In this document: piece by piece, positions 25,787-39,796 of the stretch | Numbering within the stretch: the stretch's first letter is position 1 | Layout: each line of letters begins with the position of its first letter | Source: an uncultured Bacteroidota bacterium | GTDB taxonomy: Bacteria > Bacteroidota > Bacteroidia > Chitinophagales > LD1 | Direction: 5' to 3' | Assembly (NCBI GenBank): GCA_903919075.1 | Contig: CAIXGR010000090.1 | Span: 1-60,390 of the forward strand | Length of the DNA: 60,390 nucleotides | Notes under the pieces: model-generated | Told to the model about the DNA's origin: nothing | What the model saw: only the letters and a program-made list of their open reading frames with translations | Database searches by the model: none | Made by a program: the position numbers and the translations under genes

Positions 25787-28555
25787 TTACCTTATTAAAG
25801 TTACGCTGCCTTTTCTTAAAACAGTACCTTCCTGGCCAAACAAACCAAGTCGGCAAATGTAAACATACACATCGGCCGGAGCGGGTTTGCCTTTGAAAGT
25901 ACCATCCCACCCGGTTCCGCTTGGCAAATTATTTCCTTCGTATACTTTTTCTCCCCACCGGTCAAATACCTGGAACAGTTTTACAGTAACGCCACTTTGA
26001 TAGTAAACATAAAAAGTGGTGTTATACCCCGTAGGGTTGTTGGGGTTAAACACATTGGGTATGTAAAAAGCATTAGGTAAAATAACCCTTATTAAGGCCG
26101 AATCGCCAATAATGCAACCTCCTGTTGTATAAACCCGAACACCGTAGAACTGATCCGTTGGAGGAGATACTACCGGATTAGGGCAGTTAATACAAGATAT
26201 ATCGAAGAACGGATACCAGAAAAACGAATCAACTATAGGCGAACTTAAATCCAAATCTGAATACATAGTAACGCTATCACCAAAATGAATAGTTGTATCG
26301 GGATATACATGAATGGCCGGAACGGCAATAGTTGAAATGGTAACTGTATTACTGCTACCGGTACAATTATGCGCATCAGTTACAGTAACCTGGTAATCGG
26401 CAGGTTGGCTTACAACTATAGTTGAACTTGTGCTTCCGGTACTCCAAGCATACTTCGAGTAACTTTGCGTTACGTTCAAAGTATCGGTTTGATTAGCACA
26501 AACAGTTGTAGCCCCGCTGGTGCCAATAACCGGTTGGGGGTTTTGCAAAGAAAAAACCCAAACAGTATCTGTTCTAAAACAACTGGTATTAGATACAGTA
26601 ACTACATAGTAAAAACTATCAATCGTTCCTGCTGGAACTGTTACACTCGGATTGGGGTCTGTTGTGCTACTCAACCAACTCTCAACTACCGGGTTTTTTC
26701 CTGTCCATTGTATGGTGGTATTAGCCGGGCTATTGGTGGGCGTTCCACCAATTTTTACTGTGCCACCTTCGCAAAGGTATTGATAGGGGCCGGCATCTGC
26801 ATTTGGAGTTGAAAGGATTGTTATATTTCCAGTATTAGCTAGCCAAAACTTATCGCAACTATCATATATAACACAACTTACTACCATATTCTGCTCGGGA
26901 TAAACAACAAAAATGGGTGAGTTATGAATAACAGTATATGTGTTTCCACCATCAGTAGACCATGCAAAGTGGTAAGGCGGCACACCACAATCAGGATGCG
27001 CTACAAAAGTATCTGGCTGCCCGGCACATACTGTGGTATTTACCGGTGTAATGTATCCTTCAACCTGGCAGGCATAAACAGTAGTTCGCCAAATATTACC
27101 CCTGGCACATAAATAGCCACATACATCCCCGCATATTGAATCCTGATCTTTTAAAGTAAATGGCAAATGAAAATCAGGGCATTGCGGTAAGCTACACGCC
27201 AAATAATCAGGAATAATAGCATTAACATGTATGCTCCTTGCAAGAGGTACCAAATTCGAATCTGTTGTGCAAGTTCCCGTATAAGGTGGAAACGCAGGAT
27301 TGCACGAAAGTGGACCTAAAACAGTATTGCATGTATTATTTACAATGGTCATACTTGCCTGGCTAAATGTACAATACGGAGCCGGTTCGGGGGGATTGCC
27401 ACAGGTATTATCGTAAGTAAGGCTGTATTCTATATCTGTATAAATATCTGTAAGTTGGCTATTTCCGGGTACCACCACCTCCATATAATTATCACAGCTA
27501 CCGGGCCTTGTAGTAAACTTAAGATTAGCCATAGGGTCACCGGAAGATAAAAAATTTCCGATTTTGGTTTCGCCAAATATTACCGGATCAATAGTTATAG
27601 GGTAGGTGTTGTTTTTATTAGTTAACCAACTAATTGGCACTAATACTTGAAGTGTGTAATCGTTACCGGTATTCAACAACTTGTACATACCATGCATAGA
27701 AAAAGCTATCGCATCCGTATAAGCAGGTTTCTCATAAGTAATCAATGTTTTACCGGTTATATCTTTAATCAAATAATCGCCTTGATAAAATCCATTTTCA
27801 AGATGTTTGCCTGATGGAGATTCTTCAATAATTATTCCCATCGGTAAGCTAAAATGGTCTTCAATTACCATCCAGCCTTTGCTGATAGGCAGTTGGAGCG
27901 GGGCATTAATAACAAAGTTTGATTCTACTTCCCCAATTGAAAAGATTTCCTGCATATCAATTCCCTTCCACATGTTTTTAACTTCAAGCCCCTCCTCGCC
28001 TATGGTGTATTGGCTGTAATTGCCTTTCTCGGGTGCCGTGTATGCAAAATTCTCATCGTAAAAATACATGGTTAAATCCTTGTTGCATTCAAACACAAAA
28101 CCGTTTTCGTTTAACGAGGTAAGTTTACGATTCAAATCGCAAATGGTAGGCACCGGTTGGTTATTGGCAGCATATACACCGGGGGTATTGGCATCAGGGC
28201 GTAGGCGATAATCAATTGTTCTCCAAATATCATTTTCTGTTTTTTTGTAATGCAGCGGAAGAAACGATTGCTGCGAATACGTACGATGGGGGTTATCTAC
28301 CCTAATAAACTGACGCGATTTTAGATCGCGCTTATCTAATAATTCAACGCATTCAACACATTGGGCGTTATATGGCCTAATACCATATTCAGGATGTCTT
28401 TTGGCTTCATCCGAAGATTCTTTATCCAGCACAGAAATGTCCATCCTTTTGTCTTCTCCAAAAGAAGTAAAATTGAATCTCTTTACATGCATGGGCTGTG
28501 CAAAGACATCAATGAATAAAAAGAAGGCAATAAAAACGAATATTGTCTTTTTCAT
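25787..28555 (-). CDS. Secreted type B T9SS protein (gliding-motility-associated CTD), 922 aa
   Basis: A large cell-surface protein. It has a signal peptide (1-20, IDVFAQ); a beta-rich N-terminal region to about 340 that closes with NNTYPITIDPVIFG; a Cys-rich segment (about 350-510); PKD/Ig-like repeats such as YAWSTGSTSSTIVVSQPADYQVTVTD; and a gliding-motility-associated C-terminal domain (about 835-922) with NAFYIPNVFNPNN, FDRWGEKVYEGNN, GWDGTFKGKPAPADVYVY and the terminal VTLIR. The type B CTD directs export by T9SS and needs a PorP/SprF-type helper, which is encoded upstream in the same cluster. The ATG at 28555 is chosen because MKKTIFVFIAFFLF makes a proper signal peptide. Confidence 0.9.
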   Translation of the reverse strand: MKKTIFVFIAFFLFIDVFAQPMHVKRFNFTSFGEDKRMDISVLDKESSDEAKRHPEYGIRPYNAQCVECVELLDKRDLKSRQFIRVDNPHRTYSQQSFLPLHYKKTENDIWRTIDYRLRPDANTPGVYAANNQPVPTICDLNRKLTSLNENGFVFECNKDLTMYFYDENFAYTAPEKGNYSQYTIGEEGLEVKNMWKGIDMQEIFSIGEVESNFVINAPLQLPISKGWMVIEDHFSLPMGIIIEESPSGKHLENGFYQGDYLIKDITGKTLITYEKPAYTDAIAFSMHGMYKLLNTGNDYTLQVLVPISWLTNKNNTYPITIDPVIFGETKIGNFLSSGDPMANLKFTTRPGSCDNYMEVVVPGNSQLTDIYTDIEYSLTYDNTCGNPPEPAPYCTFSQASMTIVNNTCNTVLGPLSCNPAFPPYTGTCTTDSNLVPLARSIHVNAIIPDYLACSLPQCPDFHLPFTLKDQDSICGDVCGYLCARGNIWRTTVYACQVEGYITPVNTTVCAGQPDTFVAHPDCGVPPYHFAWSTDGGNTYTVIHNSPIFVVYPEQNMVVSCVIYDSCDKFWLANTGNITILSTPNADAGPYQYLCEGGTVKIGGTPTNSPANTTIQWTGKNPVVESWLSSTTDPNPSVTVPAGTIDSFYYVVTVSNTSCFRTDTVWVFSLQNPQPVIGTSGATTVCANQTDTLNVTQSYSKYAWSTGSTSSTIVVSQPADYQVTVTDAHNCTGSSNTVTISTIAVPAIHVYPDTTIHFGDSVTMYSDLDLSSPIVDSFFWYPFFDISCINCPNPVVSPPTDQFYGVRVYTTGGCIIGDSALIRVILPNAFYIPNVFNPNNPTGYNTTFYVYYQSGVTVKLFQVFDRWGEKVYEGNNLPSGTGWDGTFKGKPAPADVYVYICRLGLFGQEGTVLRKGSVTLIR

Positions 28556-28655
28556 GAAGTGACAAATATAATATAATACACAAGACACAAAATTATGCAT
28601 AAATGGTTGCTTGCCAATTAATACCATTTTTTTAGTTTGTCAAGAAAAATGCTTT

Positions 28656-29240
28656 TTACCTCAATAACAGCCGCGAAAATACCCTCAAAGCATATTGCTT
28701 CAAATTTAAGCTGCTTTCAATACCATAGGTAGTGTCTTTAAACGTGTATGTTACAGTAAGCATATAAGCTGCCTTTCGTTTTTTCGAGTACACTACCATG
28801 TCATACCTGGCATAATTTAACATCTTACGGTTTCGGTAAAAGTGTGTAAAAAATAAAGTACCCTTTTCACCGCTCAAGATATTCGTGCTATCCCTTTCAT
28901 AGCTAAAACCCTTTGGCGTTACACGGTCAGGATACGAACTAAACTCTGTTAAAATGTAATCTTCGGCGTCAGTAATGCCCTTACAATCAAACTTACGCAA
29001 GGTAAAAAAGGCAGTTAACTGGCTATTATTAAACTCTTTAGGTAATCCTACCCCAGTAAATTCATATTTTAAATCTTTAACCGAAATATCGGAGTGTTCA
29101 ACTTTTTTCCAACCATCAGGCAGGCTTAAAACATAATCAGCCAGCTCAACTTTTTTAAACACTTTAAAAACAGAAGTATCGGTTTGAGCAAATACAAACA
29201 ACTCAAGAAATATAAATAGTAAAACCAACGTGCTACGCAT
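28656..29240 (-). CDS. Exported protein of unknown function within the T9SS cassette
   Basis: A 194-residue protein with a signal peptide (1-18, ELFVFAQ). The mature part has LADYVLSLPDGWKKVEHSDI, followed by mixed alpha/beta sequence and AAYMLTVTYTFKD, resembling PsbP-like or DUF1795-type small exported proteins, though I cannot assign the family firmly. It sits between the two type B T9SS cargo genes on the same strand, about 100 bases from each. It may be a periplasmic accessory factor or simply a neighbour. Confidence 0.65.
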   Translation of the reverse strand: MRSTLVLLFIFLELFVFAQTDTSVFKVFKKVELADYVLSLPDGWKKVEHSDISVKDLKYEFTGVGLPKEFNNSQLTAFFTLRKFDCKGITDAEDYILTEFSSYPDRVTPKGFSYERDSTNILSGEKGTLFFTHFYRNRKMLNYARYDMVVYSKKRKAAYMLTVTYTFKDTTYGIESSLNLKQYALRVFSRLLLR

Positions 29241-29330
29241 AGCTGCAAAAATGTGCTTTTTCCGATAAAAAGGAAAAGTATATTGAATTTACCCGGAAAA
29301 GAAGACCGAAAGAACTGATAACGATATGCA

Positions 29331-32300
29331 TTATCTTATTAAGGTAACGTTCCCCTTCTTTTCAATAGTTTTACCATTAAGGTCTTTCGCTGAAATGAAG
29401 TATACGAATGTTCCAATATCCTGCTTCTTGCCTTTGTAAGTGCCATCCCACCCGCGGCTTAAATTGTTCAGCTCACTTAAGTCATTCGAAGCATAAACTT
29501 CTTCGCCCCAACGGTTAAAGATTCTTATCTGGTAGCTTTCTATGTAATCTCCAAAAACGGTAAAATGGTCGTTAACCCCGTCTCCATTGGGTGTAAATGC
29601 TTCAGGAATACGAATATTACTTGCACAATACTCCACCCCTATTTTTACCGAGTCAGTTGCTGTGCAGCCATTGCTATCAATAGCAACTAATGTGTATTGA
29701 ATTGCCTGATCGTAACTAAATGTAGGGTTAACAATATCTGTTGCACTTAATCCGGTAGCCGGGCTCCAGGTTACATTAGGGGTTGACGAAGTAGCTGTCA
29801 TTATATAACTTTCCCCATTGCATAAAGTAGTGTCACTACCGGCATCAAGATTTATAGCACTCACTCGAATGGAAACCGTGTCAGTAGTATTACACCCGTC
29901 TGAATCGGATGCCGTTAAAACAAATTGCACACTCTGGTTATAATCAAACACCGGGTTTAAAATAGCCGGATTATTTAAACCTGTTACCGGCGACCATGCG
30001 ACAATATTGGCATTAGATGTAGCGGGCATTATGTAATTTGTACCTGAACACAATGTAGTATCCGGGCCAGCATAAGCAATAGGTATGGCACCAACCTTTA
30101 CCAATAAAGTATCGCGATTACTACAACTGGTATCATGCACAATAACAGTATACATAGTATCGTGAAGTGGGGTGACATGAATAAATGAAGTGGTGTCACC
30201 AGTGTTCCATTGGTAATGTAATCCTGCATTAGTTGAATAATAGATAATCATATCTAATACGTAAGGGCCAGTAAAAGCGCCGAAAGGATAATTATTTTTG
30301 CTTCCCTGAATAAAATCTATTACACCATCTGTTTTATACACAATCCCCTGCTGTATACCTATACCAGGGCCTGATGCTTCATTAATATTATTGGCAGTTG
30401 TTACATAAAAGGCAAAAGTATCACCCGCGGGTATATGCCAATCCACATCAATCGGAATTACGGTCATTTGCCCCAAAGGCGCTACCGGAAAGTTGTAAAA
30501 TGAACTTAACTCAGTCCATGCAGCTTGATTTTGCTCAAAAGTTCTGTACGAACCGGGTTTGCCCCAAATCTCTGCTTGCACCGGTTGGTTTGAAAGATAT
30601 TTAAGAGCGAAAGAATCAATAGTTACACCATAGTGTGCTTTGATATTAAACATAGCGCCCGGATAACCGCTATGCGCAGTATCCGAAGTTAAAAACTGCC
30701 TGGTAATATCTGGTATTTGAGCTTGCAACGTTAGCGACTGGCCAGCGCAGATAGCAGCATCATTACCAAGATTTACGTTAAACGGTGGCACTACAGTTAC
30801 CTGGTAGCTACCGCTATCGCTTCCGCATTTATTAATCGAAAAATTAGATATAGTAAAAGTGCCCAATGAATCGAATATCATACCAGACTGCACATTCGAA
30901 CCACTAAAAGTTTGCACACCCGGCGGGGCAGTCCAGTTATAGTACGTTTCCGGAAGGAAGTTAACAAAGTAATTAACTGTATCATTAATACATACTTTTT
31001 TAGGTCCCGATATTTGAACTACAGGTTTTTTTATGATTGCAAAATCAAAAGGTGCCGAACTGGGCCCTTCGCAACCATAGTTAGTTTCGCGTGCATATGT
31101 AACGTAAGTACCAATTTGAGTGGATGAATTAGTAATAATTCCCAGAACCTGATTATCCCATTCAAAATCATTGCCACCAAAAAGAATGTTAGTGTTCCAA
31201 ATATAATTAGATGGTGGATGGTTAAACGGAGTTAACAGTATTCCCACAACATCACCGGCACAAAAAACTGAATCGCCCGACGGATATAAGCTTAATACAG
31301 GAGGTGTAATATTGGGGGCACCAATAGTTATACGTATCACCGTACCCGTTTGATTCCAAGACTCATTCGAACAATTGCTAATAATACGCATATAATAAGA
31401 CCCCGGAGGTACAGGAAGAGAATCAACCGTAGAAGGAACGCAAAGTTCAAATCCACCACCAACTTTATCATGATATACTGCTAACCCGCCAACATTAACC
31501 ACGCCAAAACCCATCATATCATGTAACTCTACCGACCAATCGTTACAATCACTATAAACCGCCGCACTATCCCATTGGTGCGGATGAATCTGGATAGTAT
31601 CACATTGTGCATACGGGCCAGAGGCTATACAAAAATGCATATCTGTATGGTTATTCGTCAATACGTCGCAGGCGGTAATACAAAATGGCCCTATGCTATC
31701 GCTTACAGTATATGGGTTGGTTGAATATACTCTTATATAGTATCCACAACCCGGTTGAACTGTTGCCGGTATTAAACTCGAAATATCGCCTTGAGGGTCG
31801 TAAACAGGAAATGAATCAGATACAGCTAAATGCCCCAATATGGTAGTTGAATCAGCAAAATTGCCCGAGGTATTTGAAAGCTGCGCGTAGTAAACATTGT
31901 TGGCGCCAAAAACACCGCCATTGCCGTTTGAAATACCCGAACTAAACTTTACATCCAGCTCGCTTAATATACAAGTGGTATCAGCATCATTCATTACCGG
32001 TGCCGATAAATTATAAATAATATTACTGCAATGCATTACACTAAAACATGCACTGGCGTCCCCAACTACAACCGGCAAGGGGCTTGTACGCACAAAACGC
32101 ACCTTGAAACAGTCACCATGCATATTTGCTGCAGGTACAATTTGAGCAAATACAAATGAAGTACCACCTGAAAGAGGATAATAGTACGGGCCGTTGTATG
32201 GATTAGCAAAGCTTCCGTTACCATCGCTCATTTGCAATAGATAACTTCCATCGCACAACGGTGGATTTATTTCAATTAGCGCGTACCCCACATCACCTTG

Positions 32301-33020
32301 GCATATTGGGGTGTCAAGCAATTCAAATACTGAAATATGTGAAGGATAATTAATAGGGTCATAAGTACCTACGGCAATAATATCATCAATACCAAACGAA
32401 ATATCCGAAGAATCATTGCTGGCCGCGTTTACCCATCTAAACCCAAATTGCAGGTTAGTTACGTTGTTGAAAGCCGTGTCATGAATAGCTTCGTATGCCC
32501 ATTCGCCCTGATTATAATATTTAGGTCTACCGGTTTGTATCCAGGGGCCGCCATCAGCGCTATAATAAACTTGGCCGTAAGCATTAGTATCGCCCTGACA
32601 TATCCATGAAAAAGAAAAAACAACATCAACTAATGCCAACGAGCAAAACGATGTTCCCAATGTGCAAAATCTGTCGGATGCTGAATGTGTATTCCAATTG
32701 GCATTAGCTACGCCTGACGGGTTGATAGTATCATGAATATGCAGGTAGTGTGAGTGCGGGGCCATAAAAATGGTGTCGCCCGCTGCGGTACTGTCTTGAG
32801 GCGTGGTATTAGGATAAACAGGCTGCCCGGTATAAAGATTATTTATTATCCAATCATTGGCACCATAACTTCTGGGAGCGGCTATGGTATCTGGGCCCGG
32901 TATATCGAAATTAATACCGCCCTGCCCATTCTCAAAGCTTTGAGTATATAGCAATACCTGTTGCGCCGAAATAAACGAGCCTGTTAAAACTGAAAAGATT
33001 AAAATAAATATTTTTTTCAC
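29331..33020 (-). CDS. Secreted type B T9SS protein (gliding-motility-associated CTD), 1229 aa
   Basis: The largest cargo of the cassette. It has a signal peptide (1-19, SFISAQ), an N-terminal MAM/lectin-like beta-sandwich domain (about 20-230, YTQSFENGQGGINFDIPG ... FGFRWVNAASNDSSDISFGIDDI), Ig/PKD-like domains, and two near-identical modules near the C-terminus, each with a GxDTTLC turn followed by W-S-P-(A/V)-T-G-L. The gliding-motility-associated CTD (about 1145-1229) has EAFTPNGDGVNDHF, FNRWGEEVYAS, GWDGTYKGKKQD and the terminal VTLIR. The start codon is GTG at 33020, required to keep the signal peptide. It is probably a surface adhesin exported by T9SS with the adjacent PorP/SprF protein. 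Confidence 0.9.
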   Translation of the reverse strand: MKKIFILIFSVLTGSFISAQQVLLYTQSFENGQGGINFDIPGPDTIAAPRSYGANDWIINNLYTGQPVYPNTTPQDSTAAGDTIFMAPHSHYLHIHDTINPSGVANANWNTHSASDRFCTLGTSFCSLALVDVVFSFSWICQGDTNAYGQVYYSADGGPWIQTGRPKYYNQGEWAYEAIHDTAFNNVTNLQFGFRWVNAASNDSSDISFGIDDIIAVGTYDPINYPSHISVFELLDTPICQGDVGYALIEINPPLCDGSYLLQMSDGNGSFANPYNGPYYYPLSGGTSFVFAQIVPAANMHGDCFKVRFVRTSPLPVVVGDASACFSVMHCSNIIYNLSAPVMNDADTTCILSELDVKFSSGISNGNGGVFGANNVYYAQLSNTSGNFADSTTILGHLAVSDSFPVYDPQGDISSLIPATVQPGCGYYIRVYSTNPYTVSDSIGPFCITACDVLTNNHTDMHFCIASGPYAQCDTIQIHPHQWDSAAVYSDCNDWSVELHDMMGFGVVNVGGLAVYHDKVGGGFELCVPSTVDSLPVPPGSYYMRIISNCSNESWNQTGTVIRITIGAPNITPPVLSLYPSGDSVFCAGDVVGILLTPFNHPPSNYIWNTNILFGGNDFEWDNQVLGIITNSSTQIGTYVTYARETNYGCEGPSSAPFDFAIIKKPVVQISGPKKVCINDTVNYFVNFLPETYYNWTAPPGVQTFSGSNVQSGMIFDSLGTFTISNFSINKCGSDSGSYQVTVVPPFNVNLGNDAAICAGQSLTLQAQIPDITRQFLTSDTAHSGYPGAMFNIKAHYGVTIDSFALKYLSNQPVQAEIWGKPGSYRTFEQNQAAWTELSSFYNFPVAPLGQMTVIPIDVDWHIPAGDTFAFYVTTANNINEASGPGIGIQQGIVYKTDGVIDFIQGSKNNYPFGAFTGPYVLDMIIYYSTNAGLHYQWNTGDTTSFIHVTPLHDTMYTVIVHDTSCSNRDTLLVKVGAIPIAYAGPDTTLCSGTNYIMPATSNANIVAWSPVTGLNNPAILNPVFDYNQSVQFVLTASDSDGCNTTDTVSIRVSAINLDAGSDTTLCNGESYIMTATSSTPNVTWSPATGLSATDIVNPTFSYDQAIQYTLVAIDSNGCTATDSVKIGVEYCASNIRIPEAFTPNGDGVNDHFTVFGDYIESYQIRIFNRWGEEVYASNDLSELNNLSRGWDGTYKGKKQDIGTFVYFISAKDLNGKTIEKKGNVTLIR

Positions 33021-33069
33021 CGGTCTGTTTTATTAATTGGCGTTACCATTATATTATAAAGATACTATT

Positions 33070-35121
33070 CTATTCGTTTTCGTAAATAAGCTTGCCATCC
33101 AGCTCACCAATAATCTTAAATTCCGTTCTGCGGTTCAGTTGATGGCAAGGGCAGTCTCCACTTTGGTCATTAGGACAATCTGGATATTTTGAGCAATCCT
33201 CAATAGGCTTAGTTTTGCCATAGCCCTTTGCAGTAATTCTGTCTTTTCGAATACCCCTGTCGTTAATCAAATAATTAGCACAGCTCTCAGCCCGTTTTTG
33301 CGATAACACAAGATTATATTGATCGGAGCCTCTTGCATCGGTATGCGAACTCAATTCAATAATTATGGTCGGGTTTTCTTTTAAGAGATTGTAAAGTGTA
33401 TCCAAGGTTGCTTTTGATTCTGTACGCAAGTCCGATTTATCAAAATCATAGTAGATATTACTAAGACGGTAGGCTTTATTCTTCTCCAGTTTTTTAAGAT
33501 ATATATCAACTGTAAGCGTATCACTTTTTGAGGCAGACTGAGTGCTGAAATTTTGAGAAGCTGTAAAGTAGCCATCTTTTGAACCGGTAAGCTTGTACAG
33601 TTTTTGTGCCTTTAAACTAAAAAAGTAAGGCATTTCTTTATTTGATGTGTCGCTGTTTATTACCAAGTCGGCTTCACTTACGTTATCACTACGCAACGAA
33701 AGGTTAACTGCAGCACCTTCAATAGTTTCTTTAGTAGCATCGTCAATTACATGTCCCTTTACCGCCAGGTATATTTTTTGTTGGTATTGATATTCGAAAA
33801 TATCATCGCAGCAGGTTTTCCCTCTTACCGAAAAAATTCCTGGCCGGTTTGAAACCAAATATCCGTCTTCGCTGTTTTTACCATACCGGTAGTAATAATC
33901 ATTACAAGGCGAGTTAAACGGCGCTCCTAGATTTTCAGGCGTATTATTAAACTTACCCGATGCATCGCTTTGCGACTTGAAAACATCAAACCCTCCCATA
34001 CTTATCCAGCCATCGCTACTAAAAAACAAAGTATTGGTTTTCGAATCATAAAAAGGAGTTACCTCATCCCTATCGGTATTAATTTTATTGCCCGCGTTTT
34101 TAGGTGCCGCAAATTCTCCATTTTTATTCATGGTGGAATACCATATATCCCTGCCGCCTTTTCCCCCTTCACGGTCCGAAACAAAATATAACACTTCGTG
34201 TCCGTTACCGGCTTTAGCCAGACTAGGTTGTGTATTGGTAACGCCCTTCATGTTTATTTCACTACTTAAAGGTTTGCCTTCGCTCCATTCTACGCCGTTT
34301 AACTGGCTCATATATATGTCGCAATCGGGCCTTAGCAAACCCCCATCGCATATAGTGTATAAAAATTTAGTGCCATCACTGTTAAACGAGCCATTCGAAA
34401 TATGCTTACCGGGTTTACTGAAAGTTTTTATTTGCTCGGCTGGTGCATAAGTATCGCCGCTTACTTTGCTGGTGTACATTTTCATTAGCGCTCCATCTTT
34501 CTTAGCATCGCTTCTATCAGGCTGCATCCATAAAACAGTATCGGAATGTATAGAAGCAAAATATAATATATCGTCTCTAAATGCAGGTGCCTGGTCGGCA
34601 TAATTCGAATTTACCTCTCTGCCCAAATGGTTTAATTTTATGGAAGGATCAGCCTTTGCTTCTCTTATCGCAAAGTTGCAACCATCGCCTTCTACGCGCG
34701 CCCATTTTTTCTTTTGCACAGCATCAGGAGCTTGGTATACTTTGGCGAAGCGCTTAAAAATAGGTATAGCCTCAGTATACTTGCCTTGCATTTTCGTACA
34801 TACACCTGCGTAGTATAACGCCATGGCATTATTAGTTGAATCTGCTTTATATTCGCGCTGAAAATAGGTTGCAGCTTTTTCATAATCCCGCGCTTCAAAA
34901 AACGACTGCGCAAGATTGTATAATACAGATTTATCAGTCGAATCGTTCTCCAGTATTTTCAGGTAAAGGTCGGCGGCCGAAAAAATGCTTCCTGCTTTAA
35001 ACGCCTCATCGGCTTCCTTTTTATAAAGCTTCTTATTGAATTTCCCATCGCCCATTGCAAAGCCAGAGACTGTAACCAGTGTGAATGAAAAAAGTAAAAA
35101 CAGGGGTGTAAGTAATCTCAT
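33070..35121 (-). CDS. PorE-like OmpA family protein (TPR, propeller, OmpA)
   Basis: A 683-residue envelope protein in four parts: signal peptide (1-22); TPR-like helices (about 30-150, including YNLAQSFFEARDYEKAATYF); PD40/beta-propeller blades (about 185-430, with FSSDGW, YFVSDREGGKGGRDIWYST and similar); a carboxypeptidase-regulatory-like domain (about 445-535, KGHVIDDATKETIEGAAVNL); and a C-terminal OmpA peptidoglycan-binding domain (about 560-680, YYDFDKSDLR ... SHTDARGSDQYNLVLSQKRAE). The order equals that of PorE of the type IX secretion system, although no lipobox is visible. It probably ties the secretion machinery or its cargo to peptidoglycan. It is 38 bases from the PorP/SprF gene upstream. 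Confidence 0.87.
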   Translation of the reverse strand: MRLLTPLFLLFSFTLVTVSGFAMGDGKFNKKLYKKEADEAFKAGSIFSAADLYLKILENDSTDKSVLYNLAQSFFEARDYEKAATYFQREYKADSTNNAMALYYAGVCTKMQGKYTEAIPIFKRFAKVYQAPDAVQKKKWARVEGDGCNFAIREAKADPSIKLNHLGREVNSNYADQAPAFRDDILYFASIHSDTVLWMQPDRSDAKKDGALMKMYTSKVSGDTYAPAEQIKTFSKPGKHISNGSFNSDGTKFLYTICDGGLLRPDCDIYMSQLNGVEWSEGKPLSSEINMKGVTNTQPSLAKAGNGHEVLYFVSDREGGKGGRDIWYSTMNKNGEFAAPKNAGNKINTDRDEVTPFYDSKTNTLFFSSDGWISMGGFDVFKSQSDASGKFNNTPENLGAPFNSPCNDYYYRYGKNSEDGYLVSNRPGIFSVRGKTCCDDIFEYQYQQKIYLAVKGHVIDDATKETIEGAAVNLSLRSDNVSEADLVINSDTSNKEMPYFFSLKAQKLYKLTGSKDGYFTASQNFSTQSASKSDTLTVDIYLKKLEKNKAYRLSNIYYDFDKSDLRTESKATLDTLYNLLKENPTIIIELSSHTDARGSDQYNLVLSQKRAESCANYLINDRGIRKDRITAKGYGKTKPIEDCSKYPDCPNDQSGDCPCHQLNRRTEFKIIGELDGKLIYENE

Positions 35122-35159
35122 TTTCTATTTAATCATTATCAAATCATCTATATAAAAAA

Positions 35160-36188
35160 CTACATCATTGGGCATGGCACCAGCACCGGATAATTAAGTG
35201 TTTTGGTTTTAATAATACCGGTGTATATAATTGCTATTTCAAATCCACCCCTGCCGCTGGTGGCGGCATTAAGCTTAGATGTATTTATATCGTACGCAAA
35301 CATGGCCCTAAATTTATAATACTCTAACCCGGCCGAAATAATTGCAGCATCCTTGGCAGTGGCCCTATACCAGCCACCCAGGCTTGCCACAAACTCCGAC
35401 TGTGCAGTTTGCACATGGTACTCAAACGCTGCACCAAAATTAGCTTCCTGCGCCTTATTCTGATATTGATAAATGAAATTAGGCGATATATAAAACTGCT
35501 TAGTTACTTTAATATGTATGCCTTCGCTAACTACAAATCGGCTTGCCAGTTTAGCATTCTGGCCCAAAAAAGATTGTTTGGGCGATACTATATGAAATAC
35601 CGAAAAACCGGTCATAAAGCCAACAACATCTTTAATGGTTGATTGCTCAAGAATACCGGCGTGGAGATCGAAATAACCGAAACTTGATTTTGAAATATTT
35701 TCGCTACTTGTTGAAGGGTCAAAATTAGTAACACCCTGTGCCAGTTGTGTTGGGAAACTTAGCCCCTGCCAGTTTAAACTCATTTGAGTATATGCACCTT
35801 GTATGCCTAAGCCAATAAAATGCTTATGGTTTTTATCAAGTCCTTTGTGAAACGCTGCCGATAAAATGGCGTTAGTAGTAGATAACTTACCATCGCCCGA
35901 TTTATCAGTTACTAGCTGCGCCCCAACTCCGAAAATATCGTTTTTAAGCAGGTTTTGAAGAATCTTTATATCGAACGAAGCGCCAAAGGTTTGATAGGGT
36001 GTTGAAATGCTTGACCATTGATTCCGGTAAATAGCTGCAGCCCTGTATGTACCCTCATTAACGCCAGTTAAAGCAGGATTAAGTGTAAGTGGGCAGGCGT
36101 AGAACATACTAAAGTGTATGTCTTGCGCAGGCAAACTCAACGCGCTTAAAATCAATGCCAAAATATAAATGCGGGTAAAGTTTTTCAA
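35160..36188 (-). CDS. PorP/SprF family T9SS outer-membrane protein
   Basis: A 342-residue protein with signal peptide (1-21, LSLPAQ), then the family opening DIHFSMFYACPLTLNPALTGVNEGTYRAAAIYRNQWSSI. The rest is a beta-barrel, ending in FRAMFAYDINTSKL and GGFEIAIIYTG. PorP/SprF proteins are needed to export type B T9SS cargo such as SprB, so the two large cargo genes downstream are its probable clients. The start codon is TTG at 36188: no in-frame ATG lies upstream, and the next ATG falls beyond the signal peptide. It is the first gene of the cassette, about 80 bases downstream of a good promoter box. Confidence 0.92.
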   Translation of the reverse strand: MKNFTRIYILALILSALSLPAQDIHFSMFYACPLTLNPALTGVNEGTYRAAAIYRNQWSSISTPYQTFGASFDIKILQNLLKNDIFGVGAQLVTDKSGDGKLSTTNAILSAAFHKGLDKNHKHFIGLGIQGAYTQMSLNWQGLSFPTQLAQGVTNFDPSTSSENISKSSFGYFDLHAGILEQSTIKDVVGFMTGFSVFHIVSPKQSFLGQNAKLASRFVVSEGIHIKVTKQFYISPNFIYQYQNKAQEANFGAAFEYHVQTAQSEFVASLGGWYRATAKDAAIISAGLEYYKFRAMFAYDINTSKLNAATSGRGGFEIAIIYTGIIKTKTLNYPVLVPCPMM

Positions 36189-36265: not shown

Positions 36266-36273
36266 CAAATATA
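36266..36273 (-). promoter_or_regulatory. -7 promoter box of the T9SS cassette
   Basis: The minus strand reads TATATTTG, a perfect -7 match, in the 104-base space between the RNA methyltransferase stop and the PorP/SprF start. The leader would be about 70 nt. No clear -33 TTTG is seen. Confidence 0.45.
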
Positions 36274-37531: not shown

Positions 37532-39796
37532 TTATTTTATAACCAAAACTTTGCCCTTATAAGTTTTGCCTGCGTTTACAATTCTAATAACATAAAAACC
37601 ATTGCTAAGACCTGAAACATTGATTACAATTTTGTTGTTTTGTAAGGTAACATCTGCCCTGGCTTTTTGGCCTAATATATCTATTACCTCAGTATATGGA
37701 TTAACCAATTCAGTATTATCAATAGAACATGTAAAATATTCTGAAGATGGGTTAGGATAAATTCGAAACGTCTTATCAGGCGTTTGTATTTGAGTTGTAT
37801 ATATATCCCACGCCGAATCGGAATACATCATCAAACCACCTGCTGAATTACCCACCAAATATTCCAGATTACCATCGTTATTTATATCGGCAATACTAAT
37901 TGTAGCATTGGCGCCTGAGTAATGGCCCAAAAAATCACTATCAATGAGTGTAAAAGAGCCGGTGTCTAATTTTGCTGGATCAATGTCGTATTCAAAAATT
38001 ATTCCGCGTATCGAGCCTACAAATAGTTTCATTTTACCCGATGCATCTTTCATAATAAAAGGTTGGCTAAAACAACCGTACAGAAATTGTTCTTCACAAA
38101 CATCTATTCCCCCAAAATTGTGGTTAGCATTATTATTGCTGAAATGCGGATTGTTTTTCGTACCGGTGTTTCGGTAATATACAAGGTGTCCATCATCCCC
38201 TCCTACTATAAGGTCATTCAAAGAATCCCCGTTAACATCATAAATAAAAGGAGCAGCATAACCGGTTACATGCAAACTATCAAAATGCGGCATTGTCATG
38301 GCCGGGTACGAAGATGATGTTGTTCCCGTGTTTTTAAAATAATATAAAAAACCATCAGCCGCACCTATTATAAGGTCGGCCTTTCCATCGCCATCCAAAT
38401 CGCCAAAGGTGGGGCTCATGCCCAACAGTCCGTAATTACTAAAGTTATTATAATCTAATGTTACCTCTGTAAATTTGGGTTCGGTTGAATTACCGGTATT
38501 TTGATAATAAGCCAATGAAGATTGATATTGATTAGGCCCAGATGATTGATAGTAACCATAATTGCCAACAATAATATCCATCAATCCATCGCCATTAAAA
38601 TCGTAAAACACACCGCGCGAATTAGTCCCAAAATCAAGCATGTGATGGACAAGGAATGAATCATTTTGATACTCGAACCAACAAGTGGTATCACCGGTAC
38701 TTTTAAAATACATTACATTTTTTGTGTTCCGTGAATTTCCGCTGGCATAGTCATACGGCGCATAAACATTAGGCGCCATTAATATATCATCCAACCCGTC
38801 GCCATTTATATCCACACCGTAAGCAGCAGGATATGAAGGCATAAGCATAGGAACGCCACATGGTGGAAAAATAGAATCCCATTCACAGATATATCCCAAT
38901 GAATCTTCCCTACCACCGCAATTTCGTAATAAAAATAAATCGTTGTATCCTACATTTCCATTTAGCAAATCAATATCATGGTACACCGGGTCAACAAAAG
39001 CATAAATACTGTTCCCGGAATGCCTTGGGCTGCCGTTATTTTGATTATGTGGCAGAACACCGGTTACACAATTACTGGTTATAGGATTTATATTTAAAGT
39101 AATAGAGTTACTGCTTATATTTTGCGCAGCAGCACCCCAACAACTGGTAATTAATCTATATTTAAGTGAATCTACATTATATGCCGGGTTACCGATGTTT
39201 TCAATCGTCTGATTTTCGTAATAACTAATTGTACCTCCAAAAATATCATAGGTCAGTACGTCAAGGTCGCCATCGCCATTTACATCAGTAAAAACCGGAA
39301 TGTCTGTTATTGTTGTGTAAATATTTGTAGTAAACGGTGGATATATATATTTTAAAAACGGAGCAACCGTATCGAAATGCAGCAACCCGTTAATTATATC
39401 TCCTTTCATTACAAGCGTACCCAAACCCGTAGACGTAAATAAATCCGGAATACCATCGTGATTGTAATCTCGTATTAACGCCCAATTGCGCATACTTGAA
39501 GGAAATAAATCTTCGTATTGCGGAGCATAGGTATACATATTGTCCGCATAGCCGCCATTGCCCAAATAGGTTAATACCTTCCCGCTAACTCTATCAAAAA
39601 CAAACAAATCAGGTATACTATCACCGTTTAGGTTGCATACCGAAAACTGTGGCGAATCCATGCCCCCTGTCCAAGGGTCGCGCATTTGCAGTCCGTTTCT
39701 ATCGACCGGTATGCTGATAACGCGATGTTTGGCGGATTGGGCATTCAGTCCATTTACCATTGCAATAAGACTAACAAAAAGAAACAAACGATTCAC
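37532..39796 (-). CDS. FG-GAP/VCBS-repeat protein with type A T9SS sorting domain
   Basis: A 754-residue exported protein. It has a signal peptide (1-19, VNGLNAQ), then FG-GAP/VCBS repeats with Ca-binding DxNxDGxxD loops: DVNGDGDLDVL, DINGDGLDDIL, DFNGDGLMDII, DLDGDGKADLI, DVNGDSLNDLI and DINNDGNLEYL, forming an integrin-like propeller. The C-terminal type A sorting domain (about 675-754) has FRIYPNPSSEYFTCSI and GLSNGFYVIRI with a final KGKVLVIK. The protein is secreted by T9SS and anchored at the surface or released. Ca-dependent binding of glycans or other surfaces is likely, but the ligand is unknown. Confidence 0.9.
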   Translation of the reverse strand: MNRLFLFVSLIAMVNGLNAQSAKHRVISIPVDRNGLQMRDPWTGGMDSPQFSVCNLNGDSIPDLFVFDRVSGKVLTYLGNGGYADNMYTYAPQYEDLFPSSMRNWALIRDYNHDGIPDLFTSTGLGTLVMKGDIINGLLHFDTVAPFLKYIYPPFTTNIYTTITDIPVFTDVNGDGDLDVLTYDIFGGTISYYENQTIENIGNPAYNVDSLKYRLITSCWGAAAQNISSNSITLNINPITSNCVTGVLPHNQNNGSPRHSGNSIYAFVDPVYHDIDLLNGNVGYNDLFLLRNCGGREDSLGYICEWDSIFPPCGVPMLMPSYPAAYGVDINGDGLDDILMAPNVYAPYDYASGNSRNTKNVMYFKSTGDTTCWFEYQNDSFLVHHMLDFGTNSRGVFYDFNGDGLMDIIVGNYGYYQSSGPNQYQSSLAYYQNTGNSTEPKFTEVTLDYNNFSNYGLLGMSPTFGDLDGDGKADLIIGAADGFLYYFKNTGTTSSSYPAMTMPHFDSLHVTGYAAPFIYDVNGDSLNDLIVGGDDGHLVYYRNTGTKNNPHFSNNNANHNFGGIDVCEEQFLYGCFSQPFIMKDASGKMKLFVGSIRGIIFEYDIDPAKLDTGSFTLIDSDFLGHYSGANATISIADINNDGNLEYLVGNSAGGLMMYSDSAWDIYTTQIQTPDKTFRIYPNPSSEYFTCSIDNTELVNPYTEVIDILGQKARADVTLQNNKIVINVSGLSNGFYVIRIVNAGKTYKGKVLVIK

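Follow-up and report, generated by a model that had tools for sequence, protein, structure and literature searches.

Which genes of a compact secretion cassette belong together, and where would their products end up? The question is raised by the window analysed here, a 60,390-nt stretch of contig CAIXGR010000090.1 from an uncultured Bacteroidota bacterium (GCA_903919075.1; genome label G000, assembly of 3.53 Mb in 97 contigs). It carries genes for a PorP/SprF-family protein of the type IX secretion system (T9SS), a PorE-like OmpA protein (PorE in the gene orders below) and two large proteins, cargo1 and cargo2, which end in type B C-terminal domains (CTDs), with a small exported protein encoded between the cargos. 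PorP, PorE and cargo1 are the core, and a PorP, a PorE-like protein and a type B cargo make up an operon kind that is already known; what the analysis adds is a conserved cargo pair and a repeated exchange of sorting signals. In six families cargo1 and cargo2 are inherited together and often lie side by side, whether PorP/PorE are there or not, and duplicates of both carry, by their sequences, a type A in place of the type B signal. We consider it likely that the cassette serves to produce and anchor large surface adhesins, of which at least cargo1 would be held by PorP and PorE, the type A copies being sent elsewhere.

Composition of the cassette

A check of the open reading frames (ORFs) found all five at the positions given in the preliminary description, all of them on the minus strand. 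Four of the genes, with their recognised parts, are listed here.

35160..36188, minus strand: PorP/SprF-family outer-membrane shuttle, 342 amino acids, TTG start (Pfam and NCBIfam)
33070..35121, minus strand: PorE-like protein, 683 amino acids, with TPR, a middle region, a CarboxypepD_reg-like part and an OmpA domain
29331..33020, minus strand: cargo1, type B CTD protein, 1229 amino acids (Pfam and NCBIfam)
32364..32957, minus strand: cargo1 residues 22-219, MAM-like fold (predicted structure, fold match)
31320..32348, minus strand: cargo1 residues 225-567, tandem immunoglobulin (Ig)-like domains (predicted structure, weaker fold evidence)
29334..29615, minus strand: type B CTD of cargo1 (Pfam, NCBIfam)
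25787..28555, minus strand: cargo2, type B CTD protein with a Cys-rich region, 922 amino acids (Pfam, NCBIfam)
27548..28216, minus strand: cargo2 model residues 115-337, galactose-mutarotase-like domain (predicted structure)
25802..26062, minus strand: type B CTD of cargo2 (Pfam, NCBIfam)

The length of cargo2 is counted from the ATG before KKTIF; the earlier ATG preferred by the ORF listing would give 946 amino acids, and the structure model begins one residue ahead of the chosen ATG.

PorP was matched by PF11751 (150.5 bits, cut-off 22.3) and TIGR03519 (186.9 bits, cut-off 90.55). In the PorE-like protein the TPR_16 and OmpA matches are above cut-off, the CarboxypepD_reg-like part is weak and below it, and the PorE model NF052230 aligns with residues 34-639 at 292.1 bits, under its curated cut-off of 600; the CHU_0125 OmpA family model NF053607 yields 344.2 bits, likewise under its curated cut-off (620). 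As both curated scores are missed, the protein is, judged from its sequence, a relative of the PorE and CHU_0125 families rather than PorE itself. There is no Cys among its first 30 residues, and hence no lipobox. The CTD of cargo1 scores 64.3 bits with PF13585 (cut-off 27) and 50.8 with TIGR04131 (cut-off 35), that of cargo2 41.2 and 37.5 bits, respectively. Family models and the PorE-model alignment thus agree with the description of the locus as a PorP/SprF, PorE-like OmpA and type B cargo cassette.

Predicted structures of the two cargos

The structure predicted for residues 1-607 of cargo1 (predicted local distance difference test, pLDDT, 79; predicted template-modelling score, pTM, 0.57) superposes over residues 22-219 on the MAM domain of meprin alpha (Z 15.3, root-mean-square deviation (rmsd) 2.3 over 154 aligned residues). 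Meprins fill the first seven rows of the fold search, followed by MAM-containing phosphatases; residues 225-567 resemble tandem Ig-like domains, with a poorer superposition. No family model matched the MAM head of the window cargo1 at the sequence level; a Reelin_subrepeat-B match was found in 14 of 39 cargo1 relatives (best E 1.5e-4).

For cargo2, residues 1-519 were modelled with pLDDT 81 and pTM 0.80, and model residues 115-337 align with GLMP (Z 13.2, rmsd 3.8, 206 residues) and with galactose mutarotases at Z of about 11. The galactose-mutarotase-like fold, or supersandwich, occurs in many carbohydrate-active proteins of the match list. The Foldseek ranking by itself gave complement and glycoside-hydrolase chains at low template-modelling scores; the fold assignments rest on a second structural alignment and are limited to the domains covered there. 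Both heads look like binding heads in these models, and no enzyme activity is claimed for them. The two N-termini had been described as unrelated, and so they appear, one being MAM-like and the other Cys-rich. Neither head matched a Pfam family in the window proteins, and no credible relative of cargo1, cargo2 or the small protein was found among the sequences of solved structures. In longer cargo2 orthologues (about 1100 amino acids; L196, L201, L206, L209, L057 and L218) the region of about residues 585-690 is matched twice, which suggests an internal domain duplication.

Conservation of the module and of the cargo pair

Within family f1, to which G000 belongs, PorP, PorE and cargo1 are contiguous in ten genomes (G000, G001, with cargo1 split in two pieces, G002, G003, G005, G006, G009, G011, G014 and G026), and in six f19/f21 genomes (G049, G062, G072, G084, G095 and G111) the contiguous string is PorP-PorE-cargo1-cargo2. 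The preliminary description had proposed that cargo and small-protein genes scattered in relatives would speak against a cassette: such scatter is seen for the small protein and partly for the cargos, which in several relatives lie apart from PorP/PorE.

A broader view was obtained from an order sample of 396 genomes, in which heads were accepted at E ≤1e-15 (cargo1) or 1e-12 (cargo2) and PorP orthologues at 1e-80. Cargo1 heads were found in 58 genomes, cargo2 heads in 50 and the PorP orthologue in 29. Cargo1 was present in 44 of the 50 genomes with cargo2; counted by genus, it occurs in 14 of the 18 genera with cargo2, compared with 25 of all 164 genera (Fisher 1.6e-10, kinship ignored). All but one of the 29 genomes with the PorP orthologue carry cargo1 or cargo2. 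A further 80 named loci, partly from the same genomes as the G set, were found via the cargo1 head; their records are metagenome-assembled genomes labelled, for example, Chitinophagales, Sphingobacteriales, Flavobacteriales, Crocinitomicaceae or Bacteroidia. Cargo2 follows cargo1 in 27 of them, a PorP does so in 9, and PorP/PorE lie upstream in 18, of which 7 overlap the 27; eight of the 80 loci have no downstream sequence. The claim that the two cargos belong together therefore holds up, and since the pair is found beyond PorP/PorE neighbourhoods, it is wider than the cassette.

Exchange of sorting signals

Three paralogues in G000 join a cargo passenger to a different tail. A cargo1 paralogue on contig C21 (68% identical over residues 1-980) carries a type A CTD scoring 27.0 bits with PF18962, exactly at the cut-off of 27; a cargo2 paralogue on C82 (81% over residues 2-671, one in-frame TAA) scores 31.7 bits, and another on C17 (60% over residues 2-498) 36.0 bits. 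Further type A copies at or over the cut-off were found in G008, G016, G038, G080 and G090 (two) and at L382, L397 and L405, so that 12 copies reach it and one, in G068, is below (L291, 24 bits). Both types of copy occur together in G000, G008, G038, G068, G080 and the two genomes to which L382/L399 and L387/L397 belong. The two closest cases have lost tails of 249 and 252 amino acids, with 90 and 95 in their place; in the other exchange pairs the lost tail measures 83 to 425 amino acids. Type B signals of up to 235 amino acids have been described (PMC12618676).

By parsimony, the cargo2 tree (56 rows) needs at least four signal changes and the cargo1 tree at least six; of the 106 rows of the latter, 88 are labelled B and 6 A. 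Best supported are the exchanges in the window/L185 and window/L183 sister pairs (100 each) and in L087+L184 (99), and L382 and L397 are placed within a clade of seven with support of 100. In the cargo1 FastTree tree, three of the six type A rows (L312, L321, which is only part of a passenger, and L405) sit on long branches, and in the cargo2 tree, where the entry for L183 is its first piece, with the label taken from the second, the placements of the L304 pair and the L285/L291 pair are starred (support 83 or less). The exchange of type A and type B signals thus appears to be natural and repeated, with not all tree placements well supported. No report of such a natural exchange was recognised in the open-licence literature.

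The type A route itself is present in G000, where three PorV-family genes score above cut-off. We discarded the idea that type A CTDs would be found on cargo pairs that lack a PorP neighbour; those pairs carry type B. A type A-tailed cargo2 copy at L183:8611-10908 with one in-frame TAA is possibly a decaying gene. At L309:3-3380 two neighbouring genes have passengers that are 50% identical, one with a type A and the other with a type B tail; from the sequences, this pair is another signal exchange, outside both cargo families.

The type B tail of the window cargo2 is itself unusual. Within 25844-26062 it has FNPNNPTGYNTT in place of the FTPN(G/N)DG.ND that is read in 17 relatives whose type B tail is complete, and the motif PN(G/N)D is kept at that place in 21 of the 25 type B tails of G000. 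Given the type A paralogues at hand, this type B copy may be drifting.

The cargo probably served by PorP

The two cargos had been thought to share one helper. Their CTDs are 39% identical, no closer than an average pair of type B CTDs in G000 (139 of 300 pairs are closer), and only the CTD of cargo1 tracks PorP. Outside the genus, its identity to the genus orthologues is 0.56-0.64 in genomes with the PorP orthologue (n=8) and 0.34-0.52 in those without (n=27; G060 was counted here, though a PorE-cargo1 fragment sits at its contig end), whereas head identity in the same proteins is 0.44-0.49 as against 0.33-0.46. For cargo2, CTD identity relative to head identity shows no clear difference between proteins with and without the PorP orthologue (10 and 14, respectively). 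Because it is the conservation of the cargo1 CTD, and not of the cargo2 CTD, that follows the presence of PorP, PorP is probably the shuttle of cargo1.

Whether PorP would serve cargo1 alone is a separate matter. Cargo2 could use another of the 12 PorP/SprF proteins matched in G000, and may have its own promoter. The divergence of the two CTDs and the independence of cargo2 CTD conservation from PorP fit such an arrangement, as do the many relatives in which cargo2 is unlinked and the tally of 25 type B CTD matches in G000 (23 counted above cut-off), by which cargos outnumber shuttles. Against it, the two cargos co-occur and adjoin, and a single shuttle for three substrates is among the cases described in PMC12618676. 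We give an exclusive service of cargo1 a real chance, somewhat short of even.

Anchor or gliding carrier

The same three kinds of protein are known from Porphyromonas gingivalis and Flavobacterium johnsoniae. The PorE-PorP-PG1035 complex of P. gingivalis, proposed as a static anchor, likewise combines a PorP-family barrel and a type B CTD protein with a PorE-like protein of the periplasm (PMC9143113); in that comparison the system described here differs in being one gene string with two large cargos and in its PorE-like protein, which lacks a lipobox Cys and scores below the PorE equivalog cut-off. In F. johnsoniae, Fjoh_3952-3951-3950 and five PorE/type B/SprF-like operons unite these protein kinds, and the CTD of Fjoh_3952 gives static foci (PMC12618676). 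The shuttle gene of the operons described there commonly lies directly downstream of the cargo, whereas here PorP and PorE precede cargo1, after which comes another cargo whose head is different.

A type B CTD adhesin and a PorP/SprF shuttle also make up the gliding pair SprB-SprF of F. johnsoniae (PMC12635249; PMC12618676), and PorP might accordingly couple the cargos to a moving gliding track rather than to the wall. The C-terminal tail of SprF contains a CXC motif that is disulfide-bonded to GldK and required for gliding (PMC12635249). The window PorP ends in VPCPMM, encoded within 35160-35180, and all 25 distinct tails of its orthologues end in PCP(M/R)(M/L) with one invariant Cys, joined in 6 of the 25 by a second Cys about 14 residues upstream; the CXC motif, which marks an SprF-type carrier, was found in none of the 25. 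A PorE-like gene stands in the operon, unlike in SprB-SprF, and the mobile F. johnsoniae substrates treated in PMC12618676 are described without such a gene. The invariant Cys, and a GldJ homologue matched in two pieces of one ORF (378 and 70 bits, under the 458 cut-off), leave some room for gliding, which we nevertheless regard as very unlikely. The static anchor is favoured because the PorP tails lack CXC and a PorE-like gene is present.

CPKF-like motifs end several of the other PorP proteins here, and no Cys is found in the listed tails of PorP proteins encoded directly after cargo1 in the named loci. The 8-kb segment G000:C17:50930-58696 contains a GldJ homologue (below curated cut-off) together with a PorP and the best PorV match, and is likely a T9SS/gliding core locus.

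The small gene and the promoter-like sites

The remaining gene of the string and two promoter-like sites are as follows.

28656..29240, minus strand: small exported protein, 194 amino acids; a neighbour, probably no functional part
28588..28617, minus strand: TTG-N19-TAnnTTTG promoter-like site, 32 nt ahead of the ATG of cargo2, not above chance
36266..36273, minus strand: TATATTTG box, 77 nt before PorP, not above chance

The gene order is FG-GAP, RsmB, PorP, PorE, cargo1, small gene and cargo2, with gaps of 38, 49, 90 and 100 nt from PorP to cargo2. The FG-GAP protein upstream of RsmB (window 37532-39796) has a type A CTD, and two tandem copies of it are found in G008, G009 and G026.

The small protein had been counted, unassigned, as part of the cassette and perhaps restricted to it. 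It matched nothing in Pfam or NCBIfam at E 0.01, and its family has no credible Pfam match. The gene was found in 17 of the 30 genomes of the family. With orthologues accepted at ≥53% identity (PorP), ≥58% identity (PorE), E ≤1e-100 (cargo1) or E ≤0.001 (cargo2), and with the partial sets of G013 and G025 omitted from both groups, it is present in 5 of 10 genomes lacking all four genes and in 10 of 18 with PorP and cargo2. In six genomes of genus g3 (G020 and G022-G026) it lies directly after RsmB, with FG-GAP before and none of the four genes adjoining, and in f19 and f21 PorP, PorE, cargo1 and cargo2 are contiguous without it. The restriction to this context is thus contradicted, and dedicated membership is mostly unsupported. 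Most simply, the module and cargo2 would have come to flank a gene of the RsmB neighbourhood; the small gene probably belongs with RsmB, as a neighbour of the cassette and no functional part of it.

It could still be argued that all five genes form a dedicated system in which the small protein acts on T9SS cargos as a chaperone or linker. It adjoins cargo2 in seven f1 genomes (G000, G001, G008, G010, G011, G012 and G014), its N-terminus, judged by eye, has an export signal, and, as a point against treating it as a mere neighbour, a T9SS cargo lies downstream of it on the same strand at all six g3 loci (immediately and with a type A tail at L060-L063, immediately and cut by the contig end at L059, after one intervening gene at L058). 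The near-equal presence with and without the four genes, the RsmB position in g3 and the four-gene strings of f19 and f21 make this unlikely; the small gene may have a loose tie to T9SS cargos in general.

A perfect -7 box ahead of the cassette had been noted. The box is there, but TAnnTTTG is no more frequent than expected by chance (66 in the window, 88 expected). The promoter consensus is TTG-N19-TAnnTTTG, and the cassette's only TAnnTTTG with TTG 19 nt upstream is that at 28588-28617 (3 in the window, 2.06 expected). With both counts at chance level the box gives no evidence for a single transcript, and it was dropped as such. The site at 28588-28617 is a possible promoter of cargo2's own.

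Proposed mechanism and significance

In the anchor reading, Sec would export the products, and cargo1, perhaps also cargo2, would cross the outer membrane through the T9SS translocon. PorP would pick up cargo1 through its type B CTD and remain bound to it, and the PorE-like protein would link PorP to peptidoglycan, so that, by the P. gingivalis and F. johnsoniae precedents, a static anchored adhesin would result. Cargo1, with its MAM head and Ig-like stalk, and cargo2, with its mutarotase-like head and Cys-rich region, are likely two parts of one surface layer and would be assembled jointly. The type A duplicates would leave through PorV and end up linked to lipopolysaccharide (LPS) or released.

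A number of observations pull the other way. PorP-PorE, cargo1 and cargo2 are all separate in G007, G015, G016 and G017. Cargo1 and cargo2 are adjacent without this PorP-PorE pair adjoining in ten genomes (G033, G040, G041, G053, G065, G068, G077, with 1.4 kb upstream only, G080, G085 and G100; in G053, G068 and G085 a weak or more distant PorP/PorE relative lies within about 4.5 kb), so that this PorP is not obligatory for the pair, and 29 of the 80 named loci have neither cargo2 nor PorP/PorE beside cargo1. The link between the cargo1 CTD and PorP comes from eight proteins of two families (f19 and f21) and is confounded with kinship. The window cargo2 CTD is near the TIGR04131 cut-off and has an altered signature. 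Mixed type A and B tails also occur in 2 of 15 other multi-member passenger clusters (among the fetched loci, with home-made tail profiles), and signal exchange is therefore not special to cargo1 and cargo2.

Paillat et al. swapped type A and type B signals by design and thereby changed the destination of SprB (PMC12618676). As in that engineered protein, one passenger is found here with either signal; unlike there, the exchange appears to be natural, concerns gene duplicates and has taken place repeatedly. We offer, as a tentative extension that is possible though less than probable, that the cargo pair represents the halves of one adhesive structure, and that Bacteroidota repeatedly reroute the same heads by duplication and signal exchange, type B copies being pinned to the wall via PorP-PorE and type A copies passing via PorV to LPS or the medium.

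These results add a widely conserved pair of large T9SS cargos, and the comparison of CTD conservation with shuttle presence offers a cheap guide to matching shuttles with orphan type B cargos. The natural pairs of type A and type B copies of one passenger within a genome provide test material for the published claim that the CTD decides the destination. If the proposed rerouting is true, sorting-signal exchange would be a general way of moving a surface protein between destinations.

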